DNA from: an uncultured Clostridia bacterium
Lineage (GTDB): Bacteria; Bacillota; Clostridia; Oscillospirales; Ruminococcaceae
Assembly (NCBI GenBank): GCA_947589355.1
Contig: CANPZC010000005.1
Coordinates: 1-64,000 of the forward strand
DNA length: 64,000 nt
Direction of reading: 5' to 3'
Shown: positions 1-63,431 of the stretch, piece by piece
Layout of the letters: each line of letters opens with the position of its first letter
How positions within the stretch are numbered: the first letter of the stretch is position 1
Made by a program: the position numbers and the translations under genes
The notes under the pieces: generated by a model
Told to the model about the DNA's origin: nothing
Database searches by the model: none
The model's input: the letters and a program-made list of their open reading frames with translations, nothing else

Positions 1-6
1 GTAATT

Positions 7-1278
7 ATGTCAAATACAAAAATGACTATGACACAGAAAATACTCGCCCATGCGGCAGGGGTTGAAAAAGTAGTGCCCGGGCAGCTTATTATGGCAAAAC
101 TAGACCTTGTTATGGGCAATGACATAACCTCGCCCGTGGCTATGAACGCATTTGAAAAGGCAGGCTGCCAAAGCGTTTTCGACAAAGACAAGATCGCGCT
201 TATAATGGATCACTTTGTGCCGAACAAGGACATCAAGGCGGCGCAGCAGGCAAAGCAGTGCAGAGAGTTTGCCGCAAGGTTTGATATAACCAACTTTTAC
301 GATGTAGGCAAAATGGGCATAGAGCACGCGCTTATACCCGAGGCAGGGCTGTGCGCGCCGGGTGAATGTATCATAGGCGCTGACTCGCATACTTGTACTT
401 ACGGAGCGGTTGGAGCGTTCTCAACCGGCGTAGGGTCTACCGATATGTGCTACGGCATGACCACGGGCAAGCTGTGGTTCAAAGTGCCCTCCGCGCTGAA
501 GATAGAGCTAAAAGGCAGGCTGCCGAAGTGGTCTGCGGCAAAAGATATAATTCTTCATCTGATAGGAATGATAGGCGTTGACGGCGCGCTTTACCGCTCT
601 CTTGAATTCTGCGGCGACGGCGTTTCGACTCTTTCAATGGAGGACAGACTTTGCATATGCAACATGGCTATTGAAGCAGGCGCAAAGAACGGTATCTTCC
701 CTGTTGATGACATTTGCAGAAAATACATAGCCGAGCGCACCGACCGCAAGTACACTGAATTTTCAGCAGATGAAGACGCGCAGTACGACAAACATATAAT
801 TATAGAGCTTGACAAAATAAAGCCGACGGTATCTTTCCCTCACCTGCCGTCAAATACAAAAACGTTTGATGAGATAGGCGATATCAAGATAGACCAGTGC
901 GTTATAGGCTCTTGCACCAACGGCAGAATTGAAGATATGCGCGCCGCAGCAGAGATACTAAGCGGTCGGCAGGTTGCCGATGGGGTTCGCTGCATAGTTA
1001 TTCCCGCAACGCAGAAAGTATATCTGCAAATGATAAAAGAGGGCATTACGCAGGCTTTGGTAAACGCAGGCTGTGTGGTCTCAACGCCGACGTGCGGCCC
1101 TTGCCTTGGCGGTTATATGGGTATACTTGCCGAGAACGAGCGGTGCGTTTCAACTACAAACCGCAACTTTGTCGGCAGAATGGGTCACACCAAAAGCGAG
1201 GTATACCTCGCATCGCCTTACGTGGCAGCCGCAAGCGCTGTTACGGGCAGACTTTCCTGTCCGCAGGATATTATTTAA
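7..1278 (+). CDS. leuC: 3-isopropylmalate dehydratase large subunit (aconitase family)
   Basis: 423 aa ORF with aconitase-family motifs ([24 protein letters not shown]); followed by leuD and leuB. Confidence 0.95.
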
Positions 1279-1290
1279 GGAGGCACTGCT

Positions 1291-1767
1291 ATGAAAGCTG
1301 ACGGAAAAGCTATTAAATACGGCAACAACGTTGATACCGATGTTATAATCCCTGCAAGGTATCTCAACACCTCCGATCCGCAGGAGCTTGCCGCCCACTG
1401 CATGGAGGATATAGACAAAGATTTTCACAAAAAGATGCATGAGGGCGACCTTATAGTGGCGCAGGCAAACTTCGGCTGCGGTTCTTCAAGAGAGCACGCG
1501 CCTATGGCTATAAAAGCGGCAGGCGTTTCATGCGTTATAGCGAAAACTTTTGCACGAATATTCTACCGCAACGCAATAAATATAGGTCTGCCTATCATAG
1601 AATGTGCCGAGGCTGCCGACGGCATTGAAGACGGTGACCACGTTACCGTTGACTTTGACACGGGCGTTATCACAAACGTTACTAAAAATGAGACATATCA
1701 GGGGCAGCCGTTCCCGGAATTTCTGATAAACATAATAAACAGCAGCGGTCTGCTGAACACCCTTTGA
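1291..1767 (+). CDS. leuD: 3-isopropylmalate dehydratase small subunit
   Basis: 158 aa; [17 protein letters not shown] and [12 protein letters not shown] motifs; adjacent to leuC. Confidence 0.95.
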
Positions 1768-1781
1768 AAGGAGCGCACAGT

Positions 1782-2852
1782 ATGACAAAGAAGATAGCCG
1801 TTATAAAAGGCGACGGCATAGGCCCCGAGATAACCGAGCAGGCGATAGCAGTGCTTGACAGAGTTGCAGAAAAATTCGGACACAAGTTTGAATATTCTTA
1901 TGTACTTATGGGCGGCTGCGCGATAGATGAAACGGGCGAACCGCTCCCGAAAGAGACCGTTGACATATGCCTTGAAAGCGACAGCGTTCTGCTTGGCGCG
2001 GTTGGCGGCCCGAAATGGGACAAAGGCGAAGGCTCAAAACGCCCCGAGGCAGGGCTTCTGGGAATACGCAAGGCTCTGGGGCTTTTTGCAAATTTAAGAC
2101 CAGCACGGCTTTTCGCACCTCTTAAAGATGCCTGCCCTTTGAAAGACGAGATAACCAAAGACGGTCTTGACCTTATTATAGTGCGTGAGCTTATAGGCGG
2201 CGCTTACTTTGGCGAGCGCACAACGGTGACTGAAAACGGCATAACCACCGCCAACGACTGCATGACATACAGCGATTTCGAGATAGAGCGCATTGCGCGC
2301 GTGGCTTTTGATCTTGCCAAAAAACGCCGCGGCAAGGTGACCTCGGTCGACAAGGCGAACGTGCTTGATACCTCGCGGCTGTGGAGAAAGATAGTGCATG
2401 AAGTTGCGAAAGACTACCCCGACACCACGCTTGGCGATATGCTTGTTGACAACACCGCGATGCAGCTGGTTCACTGCCCCTCGCAGTTTGATGTTATCGT
2501 TACCGAAAACCTGTTCGGCGATATTCTCTCGGACGAGGCTTCTATGATAACGGGCAGTCTTGGCATGATACCGTCTGCATCTCTCGGCGAGGGGTCGCTG
2601 GGTCTTTACGAGCCTATACACGGCTCTGCGCCAGATATTGCAGGAAAAGACATTGCAAACCCGATAGCAACTATTCTTTCGGCGGCTATGATGCTTAAAT
2701 ACTCTTTTGATATGCCGCGCGAGGCAGAGGCTATAGAAAACGCCGTAGCGCAGGTGCTTGAAGAGGGCTACCGCACCGCCGATATAATGTCGGCAGGCTG
2801 CAAACAGGTTTCGTGCTCAAAAATGGGCAGGCTCATAACAGAAAAAATATAA
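1782..2852 (+). CDS. leuB: 3-isopropylmalate dehydrogenase
   Basis: IAVIKGDGIGPEI start, LFGDILSDEAS motif; likely start at ATG 1782 rather than 1764. Confidence 0.95.
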   Translation: MTKKIAVIKGDGIGPEITEQAIAVLDRVAEKFGHKFEYSYVLMGGCAIDETGEPLPKETVDICLESDSVLLGAVGGPKWDKGEGSKRPEAGLLGIRKALGLFANLRPARLFAPLKDACPLKDEITKDGLDLIIVRELIGGAYFGERTTVTENGITTANDCMTYSDFEIERIARVAFDLAKKRRGKVTSVDKANVLDTSRLWRKIVHEVAKDYPDTTLGDMLVDNTAMQLVHCPSQFDVIVTENLFGDILSDEASMITGSLGMIPSASLGEGSLGLYEPIHGSAPDIAGKDIANPIATILSAAMMLKYSFDMPREAEAIENAVAQVLEEGYRTADIMSAGCKQVSCSKMGRLITEKI

Positions 2853-32118: not shown

Positions 32119-34749
32119 TTATCCGTTTATGATGTTTGTCAGTATTCCGTCAAAAGCGTGCAAAGCTTCGTCTATCTTGTTTATGTCGCCTATTCCTGCC
32201 ATAGCCATGTCGGGTCGTCCGCCGCCCTTACCGCCTGTTACTGCGGCTGCCTCTCTGACAAGCTTGCCTGCGTTCGCGCCCATTTCAACAGCCTTTTTGG
32301 AGCAGGCACACATAAACTTGGGCTTCTCGTCGGCAGTGCCAGCCATAAGCAATACGAACGGTTCGTCTATCGTCTTTACGCCCTCGGCAAGATTTTCATA
32401 CATATCGGAGCCTACGTTGGTCATCATGTTCGCCATAACTTTAATACCGCACACCTCGCGGCAGTTCTTTATCATATCCGCAAAAATGCCGTCGGCTATC
32501 TTCTTTTTAAGGCTCTCTGCGACCCTTTCAAGGCTCTTGTTTTCTTCAAGAACGCCCATTATCCTGTCCGCAAGGTGATTGGGATCGCTGAGTTTGAGAA
32601 TAGTAGCCGCTTCTTTCACCCTGCCGTTTATCTCATCAAATATTTTCAGAACGCCCATACCTGTAACGCCCTCGATACGCCGAACTCCCGCAGCTACAGA
32701 GCTTTCGGAAACTATCTTGAAAAGACCTGCCCTTGCGGTGTTGTCAAGGTGCGTGCCGCCGCAAAATTCGGTAGAAAAGCCGTCTTCAACGCTTACAACT
32801 CTTACCACCTTGCCGTACTTCTCGCCAAACAGAGCTATTGCTCCCTTTTCTCTCGCTTCTTCAATAGGCAGCTCCTGCGTTTTGACCTGCACGCCTTTAA
32901 GTATCTCCTCATTTACAAGCCTTTCAACTTCCGCCAGCTCATCGGGCGTTACCGCGCTGAAATGCGAAAAGTCAAACCTGCATCTGTAAGGGTCAACATA
33001 AGAACCTGCCTGATGAACGTGATCGCCGAGCACCTTTCTCAGCGCCGCTTGCAGCAGGTGGCAACAGGTGTGGTTTCTCTCTGTGGCAAGCCTCAGCTCC
33101 TCGTCTACCTGAGCCAGCACCTCATCGCCTGCAAAAAAGCTGCCGCTCTCAACAATGCACTCGCTCACGAACTGACCTGTGGTAGCTTTCTTTGTGTCCA
33201 GCACCCTCATAACGCTGTCGCCCGATCTTATAACGCCCTTGTCGCCTACCTGACCGCCCATTTCCGCATAGAACGGCGTTTCCTCGATAACGGCAAGCAC
33301 GCTGTCGCCCTCGTTTGCAGCCGAAACGCTCTCTCCGTCTTTCAAAAGTGCAAGCAGTTTTGTCTTTTGAGAAAGCGTATCATAACCCACAAACTTGGTA
33401 GTGTAGCCCGATACCGCATTCATAGAAGCCTCGTCCCAGCCGCCCTTGAACGCCTGATTTGCCCTTGCGGTCTGCTTCTGAACTATCATAAGCTCCTTGA
33501 AACGCTCTTCATCAAGCGAGAGATTCTTTTCTTCAAGTATCTCTTTTGTAAGGTCAAGCGGAAAACCGTATGTGTCGTGCAGCTTGAAAGCATCATCGCC
33601 GCTTAGTATCCCGTCGCTGCCTATGCCCTCAATAAGCTCTGCCAGCAGCGCAGTGCCTTTTTCAATAGTCTTGTTAAAACTCTCCTCCTCGGTGGAGATG
33701 ACTTTCTTTATATACTCTCTCTTTTCTTCAAGCTCGGGGTAGGCGTTTTTGTTCTCGTCTATAACTTGATCAACAACTTGTGCAAAGAACGGCTTTGTGT
33801 TGCCCAGCAGTCTGCCGTGGCGAGCAGCCCTCCTTATAAGTCTGCGAAGAACATAACCCCTGCCCTCGTTTGAGGGTCTTACGCCGTCGCCGACCATAAA
33901 TGTTGCAGCTCTTGCGTGGTCGGTAATAACGCGTATAGAAATATCGTCGTTTGCGTTCTCGCCATACTTCTTGCCGCAAACTTCGCTGATCCTCTTTATG
34001 ATGTTCTGTATGGTGTCGACCTCGAACATATTGTCAACACCCTGCATAACGCAGGCAAGCCTTTCAAGACCCATACCAGTGTCGATGTTCTTGTTTTTAA
34101 GCTGAGAGTAGTTTCCGTTGCCGTCATTGTCAAACTGCGTGAAAACAAGGTTCCATATCTCTATTATCCTGTCGCAGTCGCCTGCCTGTTCAAAGCTCTC
34201 GAACGGGCCGTACTTCTCGCCCCTGTCAAAATGAATCTCAGAGCACGGGCCGCACGGACCGCTGCCATGCTCCCAGAAGTTGTCCTTTTTGCCCAGCTTA
34301 ATTATTCTGTCGCGCGGCACGCCTATCTCGTTTGCCCAGATGTCGCCTGCCTCGTCGTCCTGCTCATATATAGTCACCCACAGCCTGTCCTCGGGTATCT
34401 CAAGCACCTTTGTCAGGTACTCCCACGCCCAAGCGGTCGCCTCGTGCTTGAAATAATCGCCGAACGAAAAGTTGCCGAGCATTTCAAAGTATGTGCCGTG
34501 CCGTGCCGTCTTGCCGACGTTTTCGATATCGGGCGTTCTTATGCACTTCTGGCAGGTAGTCACCCTTTTGCGCGGCGGCGTTTCAATGCCCTGAAAATAC
34601 TTTTTCAGCGGTGTCATGCCGGCGTTTATCAGCAGCACCGAGTTGTCGTCCTGCGGCACCAATGGCGCAGAATCCATTCGCAGATGCTCCTTGCTTTCAA
34701 AAAATTTCAGATAGCTTTCTCTTAGTTCGTTAAGTCCTGTCCACTTCAT
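32119..34749 (-). CDS. alaS: alanyl-tRNA synthetase
   Basis: 876 aa; NAGMTPLKKYFQG, GMGLERLACVMQG, HTCCHLLQAALRKVLG. Confidence 0.97.
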   Translation of the reverse strand: MKWTGLNELRESYLKFFESKEHLRMDSAPLVPQDDNSVLLINAGMTPLKKYFQGIETPPRKRVTTCQKCIRTPDIENVGKTARHGTYFEMLGNFSFGDYFKHEATAWAWEYLTKVLEIPEDRLWVTIYEQDDEAGDIWANEIGVPRDRIIKLGKKDNFWEHGSGPCGPCSEIHFDRGEKYGPFESFEQAGDCDRIIEIWNLVFTQFDNDGNGNYSQLKNKNIDTGMGLERLACVMQGVDNMFEVDTIQNIIKRISEVCGKKYGENANDDISIRVITDHARAATFMVGDGVRPSNEGRGYVLRRLIRRAARHGRLLGNTKPFFAQVVDQVIDENKNAYPELEEKREYIKKVISTEEESFNKTIEKGTALLAELIEGIGSDGILSGDDAFKLHDTYGFPLDLTKEILEEKNLSLDEERFKELMIVQKQTARANQAFKGGWDEASMNAVSGYTTKFVGYDTLSQKTKLLALLKDGESVSAANEGDSVLAVIEETPFYAEMGGQVGDKGVIRSGDSVMRVLDTKKATTGQFVSECIVESGSFFAGDEVLAQVDEELRLATERNHTCCHLLQAALRKVLGDHVHQAGSYVDPYRCRFDFSHFSAVTPDELAEVERLVNEEILKGVQVKTQELPIEEAREKGAIALFGEKYGKVVRVVSVEDGFSTEFCGGTHLDNTARAGLFKIVSESSVAAGVRRIEGVTGMGVLKIFDEINGRVKEAATILKLSDPNHLADRIMGVLEENKSLERVAESLKKKIADGIFADMIKNCREVCGIKVMANMMTNVGSDMYENLAEGVKTIDEPFVLLMAGTADEKPKFMCACSKKAVEMGANAGKLVREAAAVTGGKGGGRPDMAMAGIGDINKIDEALHAFDGILTNIING

Positions 34750-35320: not shown

Positions 35321-35540
35321 TACAAACAAAAACAGTTCCGCCCTTGATATGGGACGAAGCTGCTCCGTGGTACCACCCAAATTGCAGAAATTTTCTGCCG
35401 CTCTTTTTCTTTAACGCAGAAGATACGGCGCGGTTTGCCGCGCAGGCTCGGGAGCAGCCACCGAAGCGCCTTACAGGGGCTTGCACCTACCGCCCTTTCT
35501 CTGAATAAGACATCTTTCGGATAATTCCGTCATCGCCAAA
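35321..35540 (-). promoter_or_regulatory. T-box leader of alaS
   Basis: minus-strand AATTTGGGTGGTACCACGG (35365-35383), Stem I with GCT (Ala) as likely specifier, terminator CAGCTTCGTCCC...GGGCGGAACTG-TTTTTG. Confidence 0.9.
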
Positions 35541-35579
35541 AGATCTATATGTATATTATACTACCGTATCAGCCTTTTG

Positions 35580-54863: not shown

Positions 54864-57386
54864 TTATGCGGTCTCTACACTGTTTGCCTGCTGAAGACCC
54901 AGCTTTTCAACAGCCGCCTCGCGCATTTTGTATTTGAGTATCTTGCCTGCCGCGTTCATCGGGAACTCGCTTACAAAGTCAACATATCTGGGTACTTTGT
55001 GCTTTGCCATGTGCGACATAACATACTCTTTCATTTCTTCTTCTGTAGCCTGTTCGCCCGGCTTCAAGATGATGCAAGCCATTATCTCCTCGCCGTAAGC
55101 CTTGTCGGGCACGCCTATTACCTGAACGTCCTGCACCTTGGGGTGGGTGTATATAAAGTCCTCTATCTCCTTGGGGTAAATGTTCTCGCCGCCGCGGATT
55201 ATCATATCTTTTATGCGTCCCGTTATCTTGAAATTCCCGTCAGGCAGACGTCTTGCAAGGTCGCCCGTGTGCAGCCAGCCGTCCTTGTCGATAGCCGCTT
55301 CCGTAGCCGCCTCCATTTTGTAGTAGCCCTTCATGATGTTGTATCCCCTTGCACAGAACTCGCCGTCAACATTGTCGGGAAGCTCCTTGTTCGTCTCGGG
55401 GTCAACTATCTTGCACTCAACGCCGAATATCGGGCCGCCAACGGTGTTTACTCTGGTTTCTATAGAGTCGGTAGTCTTAGACATCGTGGTAGCAGGCGAT
55501 GCCTCCGTCTGACCGTAGGTTATGCATATCTCTTTCATGTTCATCTTTTCTATAACGTCCTGCATAGCCTTTATCGGGCAGGGCGAACCTGCCATAATAC
55601 CCGTTCTCATGTATGAAAAATCAGTCTTGGGGAAGTTTTCATGACCGAGCATAGCTATGAACATAGTCGGCACGCCGTGGAAGCAGGTTATCTTCTCTTT
55701 GTTTATGCAGTCAAGTCCTTTTCTAGGTGAGAACGCCGTTATAGGTGACATCGTTACCGCGTGCGTGACCGATGCAGTCATAGCCAGCACCATACCGAAG
55801 CAGTGGAACATAGGAACCTGTATCATCATTCTGTCGGCGGTGGAAAGGTCCATGCAGTCGCCGATAGCCTTGCCGTTGTTTACAACGTTGTAATGGGTGA
55901 GCATAACGCCTTTCGGGAATCCCGTTGTGCCCGAAGTGTACTGCATATTGCAGACATCGTGCTTGTTTATCTTGCGGCGCATTACCTCAACTTCGCTGTA
56001 AGGCACTGTTTCTGCAAGAGCTATAGCTTCTTCCCATGTAAAGCAGCCGGGCTGTTTTGAATCGCAGGTAATTATATTTTTCAGCACGGGAAGTCTCTTA
56101 GACTCCAGTTTGCCCGGCTCGCAGGTCGCAAGTTCGGGGCATATCTCTTTTATTATCTCAACATAGTTTGAATCCTTGAAACCGTCTATCATAACGAGCG
56201 TGTGCGTATCAGACTGCCGCAGCAGATATTCAGCCTCGTGAATTTTATATGCGGTATTTACTGTAACCAAAACCGCGCCAATCTTCGTGGTAGCCCAGAA
56301 AGTTATATACCACTGCGGAACGTTCGTAGCCCAGATAGCAACGTGGTCGCCTTTCTTTACTCCCAAAGCTATCAGAGAGCGCGCAAACGTGTCAACATCA
56401 TCTCTGAACTGCGGATATGTTCTTGTGTAGTCAAGCTCTGTATATCTGAACGCATACTGCTCGGGAAACTCCTCACACACCCTGTCAAGAACGTCTGGAA
56501 AAAGGCAGTCAATAAGCTTTTCTTTCGGCCAGATATACTTGCCCGTGCCCCTGTTGTTATCGCAGAGAGTCTCGGTGTGCTTGCCCTTGTAGGCTTTCAT
56601 GTAGTTTTCAAACTGCGGGAACACCACGCCTGCGCTGTAGAGGTTCTTAGCCCACCTCTTTACCCATTCGAGTGAAACATAGCCCGTGTAGTCAATGCTC
56701 AAAAGCGCCTTGAACATATCATCAAGAGGCATATCGCCCTCGCCCATAAGCTTGTATTCGGGCTTGCCGTCCCGCATAACGCTGTCTTTAACGTGAACAT
56801 ACTTTATATAGTCGCGAAGATTTGCAACCGTTGTTTCGGGCGATTCGCCTGCGTATCTGTATGGGTGATGCATATCCCACAGAGCTGCCACCCAGCGGTT
56901 GTCAACAGCATCGAGCACCTTTTTCAGCCTTGCGCTGTCAGAGTACACGCCGTTTGTTTCAACAAGCATGGTAACTTCATACTTTTCCGCTATCGGCACT
57001 ATCTTTTTAAGAGCTGCGATCATCTTTTCATCGTCAACATCGCCGCTCGGCTCGGGGTCTAAGTCCGCAAGTATTCTTATGTAAGATACGCCGAGTTTGT
57101 CTGCAAGTATAGCATACTGAGTTATCTCGTCAATTGCCTCGTCTAGCTTGTCTTCAAATTTTAAGCACGCGCCCGAAGAAAGGCAGGATATCTCCAGCCC
57201 CAGAGAGCGCAGTTTTTCTACCGTTTTCGGCAGCTGCTCTTCGGTGAAAGGTTTTGCCTTTACCGAGAAAATGTCGTCGCCCAGACCTCTTATCTCAATG
57301 CCGTCAAAGCCGAGGTCATGAGCCATTGAATATATGTCCGACCACGAATAGTCAGGACACGCGAGTGTTGAAAAGCTGAGTTTCAT
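54864..57386 (-). CDS. fusion of sugar-phosphate isomerase/epimerase-type TIM barrel and AMP-dependent acyl ligase
   Basis: residues about 1-270: MKLSFSTLACPDYSWSDIYSMAHDLGFDGIEIRG (AP_endonuc_2-like); residues about 300-840: MQYTSGTTGFPKGVMLTH, TYGQTEASP, GWLHTGDLAR, GRIKDMIIRGGENIYPKEIE. Confidence 0.9.
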   Translation of the reverse strand: MKLSFSTLACPDYSWSDIYSMAHDLGFDGIEIRGLGDDIFSVKAKPFTEEQLPKTVEKLRSLGLEISCLSSGACLKFEDKLDEAIDEITQYAILADKLGVSYIRILADLDPEPSGDVDDEKMIAALKKIVPIAEKYEVTMLVETNGVYSDSARLKKVLDAVDNRWVAALWDMHHPYRYAGESPETTVANLRDYIKYVHVKDSVMRDGKPEYKLMGEGDMPLDDMFKALLSIDYTGYVSLEWVKRWAKNLYSAGVVFPQFENYMKAYKGKHTETLCDNNRGTGKYIWPKEKLIDCLFPDVLDRVCEEFPEQYAFRYTELDYTRTYPQFRDDVDTFARSLIALGVKKGDHVAIWATNVPQWYITFWATTKIGAVLVTVNTAYKIHEAEYLLRQSDTHTLVMIDGFKDSNYVEIIKEICPELATCEPGKLESKRLPVLKNIITCDSKQPGCFTWEEAIALAETVPYSEVEVMRRKINKHDVCNMQYTSGTTGFPKGVMLTHYNVVNNGKAIGDCMDLSTADRMMIQVPMFHCFGMVLAMTASVTHAVTMSPITAFSPRKGLDCINKEKITCFHGVPTMFIAMLGHENFPKTDFSYMRTGIMAGSPCPIKAMQDVIEKMNMKEICITYGQTEASPATTMSKTTDSIETRVNTVGGPIFGVECKIVDPETNKELPDNVDGEFCARGYNIMKGYYKMEAATEAAIDKDGWLHTGDLARRLPDGNFKITGRIKDMIIRGGENIYPKEIEDFIYTHPKVQDVQVIGVPDKAYGEEIMACIILKPGEQATEEEMKEYVMSHMAKHKVPRYVDFVSEFPMNAAGKILKYKMREAAVEKLGLQQANSVETA

Positions 57387-57440: not shown

Positions 57441-57700
57441 ACAAACAAAAACCGCCCCAAAGATAGTTCTTTGAGGCGGAATATCTTTCCGCGGTACCAC
57501 TCAAATTGCGTTCGCACGCCACTTCAGGCTCCAACAAGCCCTTTGCTTTTACGTCGCACTTTACGGATAACACTACTTGCCTTTTGGCTTTCGCATTATC
57601 AGCTCGGGAGTGAGTTGTACAGAGACCCTCGCTGTCGGCTCGCATCTACCGCCGACTTTCTGAAAGCTGCCTTCTCTGACGCTCTCCGTCACAGCCTTTA
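57441..57700 (-). promoter_or_regulatory. T-box leader upstream of the TIM barrel/AMP-ligase fusion
   Basis: minus-strand GCAATTTGAGTGGTACCGCGG (57489-57510), Stem I with CTCCCGAGCT, terminator CCGCC...GGGGCGGTTTTTG. Confidence 0.88.
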
Positions 57701-57777
57701 TTAAACAGTATATTGAGTTTAACACATTTGAATTTGTTTGTCAAGAGCTTTTTTTATTTTTATGCAATTTACTAAAA

Positions 57778-58023
57778 TCACTTTGCCCTTGAGGCGATTA
57801 TTTCTGCCATTTCGCCGACATTCTTCATTGTAGATACCTCGCCCATCTTAAAGCGCACGCCAAATTCGTCCTCGACCGCGCCCACGAGCGTTATATGCAT
57901 CATGCTGTCCCAGTCCTCAATATCGTCCGCGACTGTTTCGGGCTTTACCGTAATTTCCTCATCGTCAAACACATCTCTGAACACCTTGTTCAGTCTCTCA
58001 TAGATCTCCTTTTTGTCAAGCAT
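57778..58023 (-). CDS. acyl carrier protein
   Basis: 81 aa with phosphopantetheine site region DIEDWDSMMHITLVGAVEDEFG. Confidence 0.88.
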   Translation of the reverse strand: MLDKKEIYERLNKVFRDVFDDEEITVKPETVADDIEDWDSMMHITLVGAVEDEFGVRFKMGEVSTMKNVGEMAEIIASRAK

Positions 58024-58038
58024 TATGTACCTCTCCTT

Positions 58039-59817
58039 TTAAATTTGCTGTATTTCTATGTATCCGCACTTGTTTTCATAAGCAGATACATTCAACTCCC
58101 AAACGGTATTGCCGCTCTCGTCCTCCGAAATTTTCTCAAACCCGAAAGAGCCGAAAAGCTCCTTTACCATTTTGTTTTTCGCCGTCGGGCAATAATAGCC
58201 GACTATCTTGTCTATTCCCTGCTCACGGCACTTTTTCACCAGAACATCAAGCATAGCAAACTCCATATCGCGCTTTAATACGCGGCAGCTCATAAGCCAC
58301 AGGTCTATATGAAGTTCTTTCTCTTTTTTCTCGCCTATAACTACCGATACCACGCCGTTGTCGCCGAATTTATCGGTCAGCCTGCCAAACAGCCTGATGT
58401 AGTTTTTGCTCTCAAAAACTTCCTGCATCTGCGCCTGCGTGTAGCGTTTTGTGGTAACGTTGAACTGGTTGCTCTTGTTTGTAAGCTGCGTTATCCTTTG
58501 CAGGTATACAGGCTGAAAATCGCCTATATACGCTGTCATTTCAAGGCTTTTGAGATAGTCTCCGTAATTTTCAAAACTTGCCTGCTGCTGCGCCCTTTTG
58601 GCGTTTGCTATATACATATCATTTCTTTGCAGATCGTCTTTTGAAAGCTGCGTTACCTCGAAAAATCCGCTGCGGTCTATAACTCTTATGTAGTCCTCAA
58701 CGCTGCCTATCTCGGGCGCTGATATGTGCAGCTGCTTTGAAACTATCTCCCGCTCGGCAGGGTTGTCATCAACAAAAACAATGCTCTCGGGCAGAATATT
58801 CAGCTCTTTCGCTGTCTGCGCAACGTTTAAGTCTTTTGGTTCCCAGTTAGCTTTTATGCACACAAAATCGTCTGGGCGCAAAACGCCGTCGGGGTGGTTT
58901 AGCCCTGCTAAGGCGTTTTCCTCGTCATTTTTTGAGCAGACAGTCAGCATAACGCCCATGCTTTTAAGCTGTTTTAAGTATGTCTGAAACTCTCTGTACC
59001 CCTGTGCAACGGGCGTTTCCTCTCCGACCGCAATGCCCTCAACGCCGTCGTCGCCTACAACTCCGCCCCAAAGCGTGTTGTCAAGGTCAAGCGCCAGAGC
59101 CTTTTTGTTCTTGCCAAGTATCGCCTTGATTATATTCGCCACGCTGAACGAAAGTGTCGGTATCGCCTCGGTACACAGCGCGTATTTATACATATACCAG
59201 TAAAGCGGTGCAGACCATTTTTCCAGCCCATAGCTTGCCGCAAGGTAGTTTATATCGTTTATGTAAAAGTCGTCATGCTCTGCCGCGTACTCATAAAAAC
59301 GCTGATTGAGCCGCGTTATAAAGTTCGTCATTCCCCTGTGGTCGTAGGCATCGCGGTTGCCTAAAAGCCTGTAAAGCGGCGGTTCAAAGTTATTCTGTAT
59401 GATAACGCACCCGAAACGCTCCCTGAGCTTTTCCCACATCATGGTAAAATGCTGTACCTGCCGCTGAAGAGCCTCGTCAGCCTGCTCTTTTGTCATATCG
59501 GGCGCAAGTTTTTCGGTAATGTTCCTGTTTGAAGTATGTATAAAAATTATGTCGGGCGCAAACTCGTCAAGCTGCTCGTTTCCAAACATCGCGTCCTGCC
59601 AGTATGCGTTATACTCCGACTGCCAGAGCTTTGGTTTTATACCGCTGTCGAGCAGAAAAATTTCCAGCATATCGGCAATATCGCCTGTGGTAGAACCGCC
59701 TAATATTGCTATTTTCTTCTCAACTCGCTCGCTGCCGTCAGAGAGCAAGGCTTTCTTTATACTGCGCTTTTTCTTCATCAGGTATGCGCCGTCAAACGGA
59801 TATTGCAGTTCTTTCAC
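58039..59817 (-). CDS. FkbH-like HAD-IIIC family protein
   Basis: KALALDLDNTLWGGVVGDDGVEGI, VFVDDNPAEREIV, C-terminal GNAT-like region. Confidence 0.92.
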   Translation of the reverse strand: MKELQYPFDGAYLMKKKRSIKKALLSDGSERVEKKIAILGGSTTGDIADMLEIFLLDSGIKPKLWQSEYNAYWQDAMFGNEQLDEFAPDIIFIHTSNRNITEKLAPDMTKEQADEALQRQVQHFTMMWEKLRERFGCVIIQNNFEPPLYRLLGNRDAYDHRGMTNFITRLNQRFYEYAAEHDDFYINDINYLAASYGLEKWSAPLYWYMYKYALCTEAIPTLSFSVANIIKAILGKNKKALALDLDNTLWGGVVGDDGVEGIAVGEETPVAQGYREFQTYLKQLKSMGVMLTVCSKNDEENALAGLNHPDGVLRPDDFVCIKANWEPKDLNVAQTAKELNILPESIVFVDDNPAEREIVSKQLHISAPEIGSVEDYIRVIDRSGFFEVTQLSKDDLQRNDMYIANAKRAQQQASFENYGDYLKSLEMTAYIGDFQPVYLQRITQLTNKSNQFNVTTKRYTQAQMQEVFESKNYIRLFGRLTDKFGDNGVVSVVIGEKKEKELHIDLWLMSCRVLKRDMEFAMLDVLVKKCREQGIDKIVGYYCPTAKNKMVKELFGSFGFEKISEDESGNTVWELNVSAYENKCGYIEIQQI

Positions 59818-59894
59818 GTTATCATCTCCGCTATTATAATGTGATGAGAAATTATAGCTTCGCTTTCAGAAGCAAGAAATAGGGTTTATTCAAT

Positions 59895-60145
59895 AGCACG
59901 GCGTTCCATAATGGAACGCGAAAAAATAGATATAACTTCTCAAAGGGGAGGCTCTCTCTTGCAGAGCCTCCCCTCTTAAAAAACAGTCCACCGGACTGTT
60001 TTTTAATTCACCTCTTGCAGAGCGCCTACCGTATGGGGATTTCGCCGTCTGCGGACGGCGACGAAGGGCGTTGCCCCTCGACCCCACGACCCTTTTGAAA
60101 AAGGGTCGATCGAAAACTTTTATTTTCTTGACAAGAATTAAACGC
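59895..60145. repeat. multi-hairpin intergenic repeat element, copy 4 (truncated, no terminal repeats)
   Basis: hairpins at 59901-59919 and 59945-59973, then AAAAAACAGTCCACCGGACTGTTTTTT, CGCCGTCTGCGGACGGCG and GACCCTTTTGAAAAAGGGTC. Confidence 0.85.
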
Positions 60146-60150
60146 TTTGT

Positions 60151-61908
60151 TTATTTCGTTTTATTCTGCACTCTCAGGTTCTCGATATAATTCGCCTTGT
60201 CGCTGGTGCAGGTGAACATACACGTTGCAAACAGCACGTCGGTCGCGCCAACATTCTGACAAAACTCAATAGCGTTGGGCGTAAAATATCTCAGGTCAAC
60301 TACGTATATCTTGCTGTATGAGCCCGTCAGGAACGGCACAAGCGCGTTGCCGAAGCTGTCTTTGAATATGACCAGCGTTCTGCCGTTGTCGCAGTCGGTC
60401 TTTATCTCTGCTATCTGCTGATCTGTACCCAAAAATGTACTGTACAGATTTATCTTTTCATACGCCTTGAAAAACAGCGTGCTTCTTACGCTCTTGTCCG
60501 TAAAGTCGGGCGAATAGTAATAAACTTCAAGGTCGTTATTGTTGTGCGGTTTATAATAGGTAAACGTATCGGGGTTGTCGGCAAGTTCGCTGTTATAGCC
60601 GCTAAATCCGTACAGCGTGCCAACAAAGTCTTCCTCTACCACTTTTTCATACGTTGAAAGCTCATCGAACGGCACTTGCGATACCTTTGCAAATTCCTGC
60701 GCCGCATAGTAAGCGCCGAGCGGCTGCCAGTGGTGGTCGGTACGCGAATAGATATACTCATCGGTATGCTTTTTCAGCGCCGAGTACACGTCAACGTCCG
60801 CCACTCCGTCAAGGTAACTTCTTATATTGTTTATGTTGTCCAGCGTATCGCCGTAATCGTCTTTATACTTATCGGGGCAATAGAACGCGAACGCAGTCGG
60901 TATGTTCATGCTGTATACATTTACATACTGCCCCAGTTCTTTTTTATACTTATTTACAAACTCCGCATACGATTTTCCGTAAGAGAAGCTGCCGCCGTAA
61001 CATTCAAGCGCCCTAACATTCTTGCCGCTGCCGACTATCATTATACCGTTTGAAAGTGTAGTATTATCGTTATTTACCGGCAAAGTGGTCTGCTGCGGCG
61101 TACTCACCGTACCTGATGGCGTGGTAACATCTGCGCCGTCAGTAGTTGTTCCCGTAGGCGGCGTGCCTGTGAATATTTCCACTTTCGGCGTAGTTACCGT
61201 GCCGCTGAGAGTCTGCTTTTCAATATCTCCTCTGTTGCCGTCAAGAATTACCTTATCTTCGTCATTTCCTATATGCAGACCGAACAGCTTTGTCAGCCGT
61301 GATGAAAACGACAGCATATCGTCGCGGTATGGTATAGTATCGGTATACCACTTTGTAACGCCGTCGGTAAAGTTTCCGCCCAGCCACTGCGATACCGATA
61401 TTTCGGGAAAATCAGCAAGCTCTCTGTTTTCAAACACGCTTCTGCCGTCCTCCCTCTTTATAACTATCAGCATTACCGCTATAACTGCAAACACCAGTAT
61501 CATAGCGATAACGTTTATAAAGTTCATTTCAAGGCGGCAGGCTCTTATATCCATATCCTTGTCTGTAGTTTTGGGAGCTTCGTCTTTAACGCCCTCGCGT
61601 ATGCGGTCGCCAAACTTTCTGCCTATCTTTTTAACTGCCTGTTTGCGTGAGCGCTTCTTTTCCTCACGCATCTGCATATTTTTTGCTTTCTTCACCTTTT
61701 TCGGGTCAAGCTGCAAATTTATAGTCTTTTTGTCGCGTTCTTCGCTCACAACGTCAACGCCGACGACCATGCCTTCTACCATTTTAATGCCCTTTTGCTG
61801 AGGCATCTCTATGGTAACTACCTTTTTGGTCTCGGTGTTATTATTTTCGCTGTTGTTTTTGTTGTCCTCAGTGTTCGACACTTTTTCTATATTCTCTTTA
61901 TTTTCCAT
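60151..61908 (-). CDS. DHHW-family protein (AlgX/AlgJ/DltD-like surface acylation partner)
   Basis: charged cytoplasmic N-terminus, TM, ENRELADFPEIS, YIYSRTDHHWQPLGAYYAAQEF. Confidence 0.9.
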   Translation of the reverse strand: MENKENIEKVSNTEDNKNNSENNNTETKKVVTIEMPQQKGIKMVEGMVVGVDVVSEERDKKTINLQLDPKKVKKAKNMQMREEKKRSRKQAVKKIGRKFGDRIREGVKDEAPKTTDKDMDIRACRLEMNFINVIAMILVFAVIAVMLIVIKREDGRSVFENRELADFPEISVSQWLGGNFTDGVTKWYTDTIPYRDDMLSFSSRLTKLFGLHIGNDEDKVILDGNRGDIEKQTLSGTVTTPKVEIFTGTPPTGTTTDGADVTTPSGTVSTPQQTTLPVNNDNTTLSNGIMIVGSGKNVRALECYGGSFSYGKSYAEFVNKYKKELGQYVNVYSMNIPTAFAFYCPDKYKDDYGDTLDNINNIRSYLDGVADVDVYSALKKHTDEYIYSRTDHHWQPLGAYYAAQEFAKVSQVPFDELSTYEKVVEEDFVGTLYGFSGYNSELADNPDTFTYYKPHNNNDLEVYYYSPDFTDKSVRSTLFFKAYEKINLYSTFLGTDQQIAEIKTDCDNGRTLVIFKDSFGNALVPFLTGSYSKIYVVDLRYFTPNAIEFCQNVGATDVLFATCMFTCTSDKANYIENLRVQNKTK

Positions 61909-61952
61909 ATGTTTATCCTTTATCTTTTCGATCCAAAACGCATAAGCAAAGA

Positions 61953-63431
61953 TCAGAATCTTAAATACAAAAACGGATTATTAGTATTGCTCAGCAGCAT
62001 GAGACTGCTTACCAGCAGCATAGCCACGTTCAGCACTATACCAAGGGTATTCATCGTTATGCACGCGCCAACACTCTTGTCGCCCAGCGAGCGTATTTTC
62101 TTTACTATCGGCGTTGAGAATATCAAAGCTGCAAGCAGCAAGAACAGATTATTCAGCACGCTCGTTCCCGTCACCGCATCAGCAAAGGCATTGCCGCCCA
62201 CACCGACTAAGTTTTTGAAAAATCTTCCCAGCGACGGCAGATCTTCAAAGTAGAATATGCCGTAGCCGACCGCCACCACAATGGTAACGTAAATGTGCGC
62301 CAGCACGCTCGGAATTTTCCTCATGCGCTTTCTGCCTATCTTCATTTCAAGCACTATGAACAGGCCGTAATACAGACCCCATAGAATAAAGTTCCAGCTT
62401 GCGCCGTGCCACAGTCCCGTGCAGAACCACACAAGGAACAGTCCGCCGTATTTTCTTCTTTTTCCGAATATCGGCACATACAAAAGGTAATCTCTGAAAA
62501 AGCTGCCGAGAGAGATATGCCACCTCTGCCAGAATTCCGTTATGTTCTTTGATATGTACGGATAGTTGAAGTTTTCGTTAAAGTGAAAGCCGAACATTCT
62601 TCCTATGCCTATCGCGATGTCCGAATATCCCGAAAAATCGAAATAATACCACAGCGCAATAACTATTATGCCGTACCATGTTCCCACGGTGGAAACAGAA
62701 CTCAGCCCTGCATAGCCGTTGTCATTGTCACCGAACATCGCGGTAACAATTGAACTTAAATTATTCGCAATTATGACCTTTTTCGACACGCCGAGGATAA
62801 GCCTTGAAAAGCCCTCGCTCAGATCGACAAGTTTAGTCTTTCTGTCCTCTATCTCAGCTTCAATGTCGGCATAGCGCACTATAGGACCTGCCACCAGCTG
62901 TGGGAACAGCGAGACGTACATCAAAAATTTTCCGAAACTTTTCTGCGACTTTACCTTGCCCCAGTATACGTCTATTATGTAGGAAAGTATCTGGAAAGTA
63001 TAAAAGCTTATTCCTATAGGCAGCGCGGCAGTCTTTAAATTCAGCCCCGTAACAGAATTTAGCTTTTCAACAATAAACAGCCCGAAGCCGTCCTCACTCA
63101 GGTGAGTGCCTGCCAAAGCGTTTATGTTTTCCGCAATAAATCCGCTGTACTTGAAAAGCCCCAGCATACCTATGTTATATATCAAAGCTGTCGCCAGCAA
63201 AAATTTTCCCGAGCGTTTTTCACGTCTGGGCTCTATTGCCATGCCAAGCAGCCAGTTCACCGTGGAACTGAGCAGCAGCAAAACTATCCACCATGGCTCT
63301 CCCCAAGCGTAAAATATCAAAGAAAATAACACTAAAATAAAATTTCTGTACTTCAGCTTTTTGGTTGCAAAGTAGCACACCAGACATACAGGCAGAAAGA
63401 AGTACAGAAAGAAAAGATCAGCAAATACCAA
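61953..63431 (-). CDS. MBOAT-family O-acyltransferase (AlgI/DltB-like)
   Basis: 492 aa, [36 protein letters not shown]-like motif, [18 protein letters not shown]. Confidence 0.95.
   Translation of the reverse strand: [492 protein letters not shown]

Follow-up and report, generated by a model that had tools for sequence, protein, structure and literature searches.

A T-box leader with a leucine specifier codon precedes a predicted isovaleryl-CoA synthetase gene in an uncultured Clostridia bacterium

The building of branched-chain amino acids from isoacids by rumen bacteria has been known since the 1960s. To our knowledge, neither an activating ligase nor a regulator has been assigned to this route. 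According to PMC7356843, which cites Allison and co-workers, rumen bacteria make leucine from isovalerate, isoleucine from 2-methylbutyrate and valine from isobutyrate. In Staphylococcus aureus, the acyl-CoA synthetase MbcS accepts 2-methylbutyrate and isobutyrate but is a poor activator of isovalerate, and it channels external acids into branched fatty acids (PMC10026030). In the papers searched, the targets named for T-box leaders are synthetases and genes of amino acid biosynthesis and transport (PMC2494555, PMC3766115).

This work describes a T-box leader in front of an acyl-CoA ligase gene in a window of 64,000 nucleotides (the whole stretch of DNA analysed) from an uncultured Clostridia bacterium of the Ruminococcaceae (assembly GCA_947589355.1, contig CANPZC010000005.1). 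Sequence data show the T-box and its codon, how far they are conserved, the ligase, and which pathway genes the genome carries. Taken together, they point to a leucine T-box that probably induces a ligase activating isovalerate for leucine synthesis, with isoleucine and valine T-boxes driving sister ligases.

When the whole window was scanned with cmscan, the leader matched RF00230 over the full length of the model (1-219) with 96.9 bits and an E-value of 4.7e-20, where 93 bits is the curated cut-off (Table 1). A sequence-only reading of this DNA had placed a complete T-box at 57441-57700 and proposed the RF00230 scan as a check. Its coordinates are correct, the strand that it left unstated is the minus strand, and the T-box motif, the antiterminator and a terminator with a T-run are all present. 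Along this strand, the promoter-like site, the T-box motif and the strong terminator follow each other in the order expected of a T-box. The terminator hairpin, which runs into TTTTTGTTTG, has a folding energy of -19.7 kcal/mol (z -6.2). As its 5' arm is also part of the antiterminator, the two structures exclude each other. When Stem I was folded by energy on its own, the canonical T-box fold did not result (z 0.18), and the T-box structure therefore rests on the covariance model. The RNA of the window is an ordinary T-box of the transcriptional type.

Table 1. Positions of the T-box unit and of the leuC, leuD and leuB genes in the window.
Feature	Position	Strand	Basis or remark
Promoter-like site TTGACA-17-TAAACT, just upstream of the T-box	57716..57744	-	consensus scan, 10/12; no proof of function alone
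T-box leader, Stem I to antiterminator	57469..57701	-	RF00230
Specifier codon CUC (leucine)	57612..57614	-	position as in known-target T-boxes; leucine in relatives' T-boxes
T-box motif GAGUGGUACCGCGG	57502-57489	-	sequence
UGGU bulge, predicted to receive the tRNA acceptor end	57496..57499	-	sequence
Intrinsic terminator hairpin	57452..57479	-	12 pairs, then T run to about 57442
840-aa fusion, predicted isovaleryl-CoA synthetase	54864..57386	-	PF01261, PF00501, PF13193
leuC, leuD, leuB	1..2852	+	ORFs 7-1278, 1291-1767, 1764-2852; outside the T-box unit

The gene that follows the T-box, with its ATG at 57386, encodes a fusion protein in which a xylose-isomerase-like TIM barrel (residues about 1-285) is followed by an acyl-CoA ligase of the AMP-forming type (about 296-830). 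As the earlier reading had held, the T-box thus precedes an acyl ligase and not a synthetase: no aminoacyl-tRNA synthetase lies directly downstream of it, and past the ligase the next likely gene lies on the other strand. Among NCBIfam models, the ligase matches PRK12583 best (693 bits against a cut-off of 832). Its score stays below every NCBIfam cut-off, and MbcS (NF047394) is absent from its 25 best NCBIfam matches. Three ligase motifs (YTSGTTGFPKG, GRIKDMIIRGGENI and the AGK lysine motif) vary little or not at all across 78 sequences, and residues E143, D171 and E240 of the TIM barrel are invariant in 78/78 aligned fused proteins. The barrel, which shows weak similarity to AsbF, may have metal-dependent enzyme activity. 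The genes upstream of the T-box form a separate set that ends before the promoter-like site. They encode, in a row on the minus strand (57778-63431), an acyl carrier protein, an FkbH/HAD-IIIC protein, a DHHW/AlgX-like protein and a DltB-like MBOAT, which together look like a Dlt-like surface-acylation set, possibly for a glyceryl-type group.

The RNA part of the mechanism that we propose follows from established T-box knowledge. A shortage of leucine would raise the level of uncharged tRNA-Leu, which is predicted to pair with both the CUC of Stem I and the UGGU bulge and to hold the antiterminator. RNA polymerase would then read into the acyl-CoA ligase gene, while the terminator would stay in place with charged tRNA. 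Because of the codon, the clade and the gene content, the substrate is predicted to be isovalerate, and the ligase would most likely turn this gut-derived acid into isovaleryl-CoA. In the predicted direction of flux, a 2-oxoacid:ferredoxin oxidoreductase would carboxylate isovaleryl-CoA to 2-ketoisocaproate, from which a branched-chain aminotransferase would yield leucine. Isoleucine- and valine-specific T-boxes would likewise drive MbcS-like ligases for 2-methylbutyrate and isobutyrate. The suggestion of the sequence-only reading that the ligase is tied to amino acid supply is probably right; the oddness that it implied in this pairing disappears, since leucine from isovalerate makes sense without the usual branched-chain pathway.

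The gene content of the genome (99.69% complete, 0% contamination) bears on this point. No match to IlvC or IlvD was found in it, and both were found in 14/14 control genomes. An assembly gap is unlikely, as IlvD is also absent from a genome of the same genus. The genome does encode a branched-chain aminotransferase, a VorB-type oxidoreductase, IorAB with a PaaK-like ligase, LeuA and CimA; leuC was recognized by an aconitase-family match (contig C5:88-1248), and leuD and leuB were named from sequence. LeuA, CimA and leuC-leuD-leuB are thus kept despite the missing matches to IlvC and IlvD. Among relatives that are at least 90% complete, IlvD was missing in 21 of 42 ligase carriers versus 14 of 70 non-carriers (Fisher p 0.0014, kinship ignored), and for the full-length fused ligase alone the difference was not significant (12/30 versus 38/119, p 0.40). 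With IlvD retained in half of the well-assembled ligase carriers, its loss together with the presence of the ligase is a tendency only.

The same genome carries a sister T-box (C4:97261-97494; 89.7 bits, below the cut-off of 93, E 2.8e-20) that precedes an HTH-cupin-ligase and reads AUC (isoleucine). Among 22 T-boxes before HTH-cupin ligases, 19 read isoleucine and three valine. Tandem ligases occur in two genomes (L151, L155), where the first T-box reads AUC and the second GUA, and in one locus (L068) an isoleucine T-box with its HTH-cupin-ligase stands head to head with a leucine T-box and its TIM-ligase. The best NCBIfam match of the isoleucine-controlled ligase is MbcS (NF047394), at 439.7 bits against a cut-off of 850, which is not reached. 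In a midpoint-rooted FastTree tree, the leucine-controlled ligases with and without the TIM barrel form two sister groups, and the HTH-cupin ligases lie outside them. The substrate range of MbcS is the pattern that would be expected if the HTH-cupin clade served isoleucine and valine and the other clade leucine. The N-terminal HTH-cupin of the Ile/Val-controlled ligases (L142-L171) is part of the same gene here (L012:2084-4357) and is encoded by separate adjacent genes in L016; it is possibly a second regulatory layer.

A genuine leucine T-box could also serve another end, with isovaleryl-CoA going to branched-chain membrane fatty acids and leucine being spared, as might be suggested by S. aureus MbcS, through which external acids reach branched fatty acids (PMC10026030). 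The signal, however, is tRNA charging and not lipid state, a genome without IlvC and IlvD needs a carbon source for its branched-chain amino acids, and a set of isoleucine, valine and leucine T-boxes suits amino acid supply better, which makes this destination unlikely. The presence of LeuA, leuC, leuD and leuB in the absence of IlvC and IlvD counts against the isovalerate route in a different way: leucine could come from 2-ketoisovalerate, and the ligase, still under a real leucine T-box, would then perhaps act on another acid such as isobutyrate and feed LeuABCD. We regard this as quite improbable, as the valine-specific T-boxes go with ligases of the MbcS-like clade, a better match for isobutyrate, and the leucine-controlled clade is separate.

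The activation of isovalerate, our preferred reading, is based in part on the codon, which was assigned by comparison with other T-boxes of the genome. Eleven were found, that of the window ligase included. The genes behind them, named by eye from translations except where stated otherwise, are hisS, GNAT-tyrS, a trpB-like gene, the window ligase, alaS, the HTH-cupin-ligase, trpE, ileS, asnB, cysE-cysS and a GNAT gene. The alaS T-box is the second of the window (35347-35542, minus strand, 94.8 bits); with the specifier GCU (Ala) upstream of alaS (32119-34749), it is an ordinary synthetase T-box. A GNAT gene sits between the tyrS T-box (L002) and tyrS, and a weak T-box of 43.7 bits (L011, G000:C38:5740-5954) precedes a GNAT acetyltransferase gene.

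As specifier we took the three bases that come before the last base of the specifier loop, which is equivalent to the choice made by TBDB (positions 2-4, counted back from where the specifier bulge ends; PMC7778990). The specifier strings were delimited by eye, since several loci were misplaced by an automatic finder, and their presence was checked in each locus. In six of eight known-target T-boxes of the genome the distance from the codon to the K-turn GAG is exactly six bases, namely those of hisS (Asp/His), tyrS, trpB-like, alaS, trpE and ileS, and at this fixed offset the asnB and cysE controls (2/8) are off by one. For the window T-box the evidence gives CUC, read 57614-57612, and none of the codons UAC, ACA, CAA and AAC, between which the sequence-only reading had left the choice, fits. 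ACU (Thr), first read off the Rfam alignment, was rejected after comparison with the known-target T-boxes.

The window T-box is thus predicted from its sequence to be specific for tRNA-Leu. The genome encodes tRNA-Leu(CAG), tRNA-Leu(UAA) and tRNA-Leu(CAA), and a gene for tRNA-Leu(GAG) was not found in it by pattern and similarity searches, which counts against the proposal. In tRNA-Leu(CAG) an A precedes CCA, and the U of the UGGU bulge would pair with this discriminator A. The complete tRNA-Leu(CAG) gene is located at G000:C8:14799-15257 (L192-L198), and two 39-base copies of its 5' part lie nearby, possibly as traces of an integrating element. It is very unlikely that a different frame holds the specifier (Thr ACU, Asn AAC or Tyr UAC) and that the ligase works for a different amino acid. 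In favour of this are the length of the specifier loop, the Rfam alignment, which sets ACU under the consensus auu, and the fact that TBDB weighs the -1 and +1 frames too (PMC7778990), but in relatives the other frames mix amino acids (ACU/UCU/GCU; AAC/UAC/AGC/CUC/UUC/AUC) and a single meaning is kept in frame 0 only. Moreover, UGGU suits the discriminator A of tRNA-Leu, and the asnB T-box of the same genome has UGGC.

A scan of GTDB genomes yielded 80 fused orthologues, mostly from Ruminococcus and other Oscillospiraceae MAGs, many of them from rumen or gut, with R. flavefaciens strains included. A pattern search detected a T-box at most 700 bp upstream in 18 of these 80, and 5/5 pattern-found T-boxes that were scanned with Rfam (L026, L033, L068, L092 and L098) pass the cut-off. 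An adjacent T-box was not found by pattern in most fused orthologues, those of R. flavefaciens included, and the Rfam scan at its cut-off found none in 15 fused-orthologue loci lacking a pattern match; this, too, counts against the proposal. Where a T-box precedes a fused ligase, its specifier is leucine in all 21 distinct cases, the window's own T-box included (CUC or CUG, a synonymous change), and the neighbouring frames mostly hold mixed amino acids. Unfused relatives of the same family are about 55-62% identical over the ligase; an upstream T-box was present in 20/20 of those fetched, and all read CUC or CUG, after GAA. With leucine read by each of these T-boxes, association with a leucine T-box is widespread in this ligase clade. 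Although synthetases or amino acid genes follow most T-boxes, a relic of a lost leucyl-tRNA synthetase or other gene with the ligase as a chance neighbour is barely credible when the leucine-codon T-box and the ligase recur together in about 40 relatives, including all 20 sampled genomes with unfused ligases, and the recent loss of an aminoacyl-tRNA synthetase, an objection that the earlier reading had itself raised, was rejected on this recurrence as very unlikely.

The search around the fused ligase returned few other pathway genes. MbcS-like ligases are encoded just upstream of it in four loci (L029, L073, L085 and L086). In L028 a PaaK-like ligase lies downstream, and IorAB is encoded near L084.

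For gut bacteria of the Oscillospiraceae type, these data make a T-box code moderately probable, in which leucine, isoleucine and valine T-boxes each control the ligase of the matching isoacid, and environmental isovalerate, 2-methylbutyrate and isobutyrate would be a starvation-induced source of branched-chain amino acids. In the literature searched, no description of a link between T-boxes and isoacids or acyl-CoA ligases was found; an earlier mention is possible. In such a code, the T-box codons would point to one candidate enzyme per acid, a matter of interest for cross-feeding in gut and rumen and for the use of isoacids as feed additives, and they would allow substrate prediction for ligases now annotated merely as fatty acid CoA ligase.

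Compared with known systems, the leader shares with the transcriptional T-boxes of RF00230 a Stem I with K-turn and specifier loop, an antiterminator with UGGU bulge and an overlapping terminator, and differs from them in its target, an acyl-CoA ligase. S. aureus MbcS is likewise an AMP-forming short branched-chain acyl-CoA synthetase and is the top NCBIfam match of the sister Ile/Val-controlled ligases. However, it feeds membrane lipids and is poor on isovalerate, the sister ligase scores below the MbcS cut-off, and the leucine-controlled ligase of the window belongs to another clade, with PRK12583 as its best match. The rumen reductive carboxylation route of Allison and co-workers is close in organism, namely Ruminococcus and relatives, and in gene content, as IlvC and IlvD are missing here and a VorB-type oxidoreductase and an aminotransferase are present; what the window adds to this route is a candidate activating ligase together with a candidate regulator.
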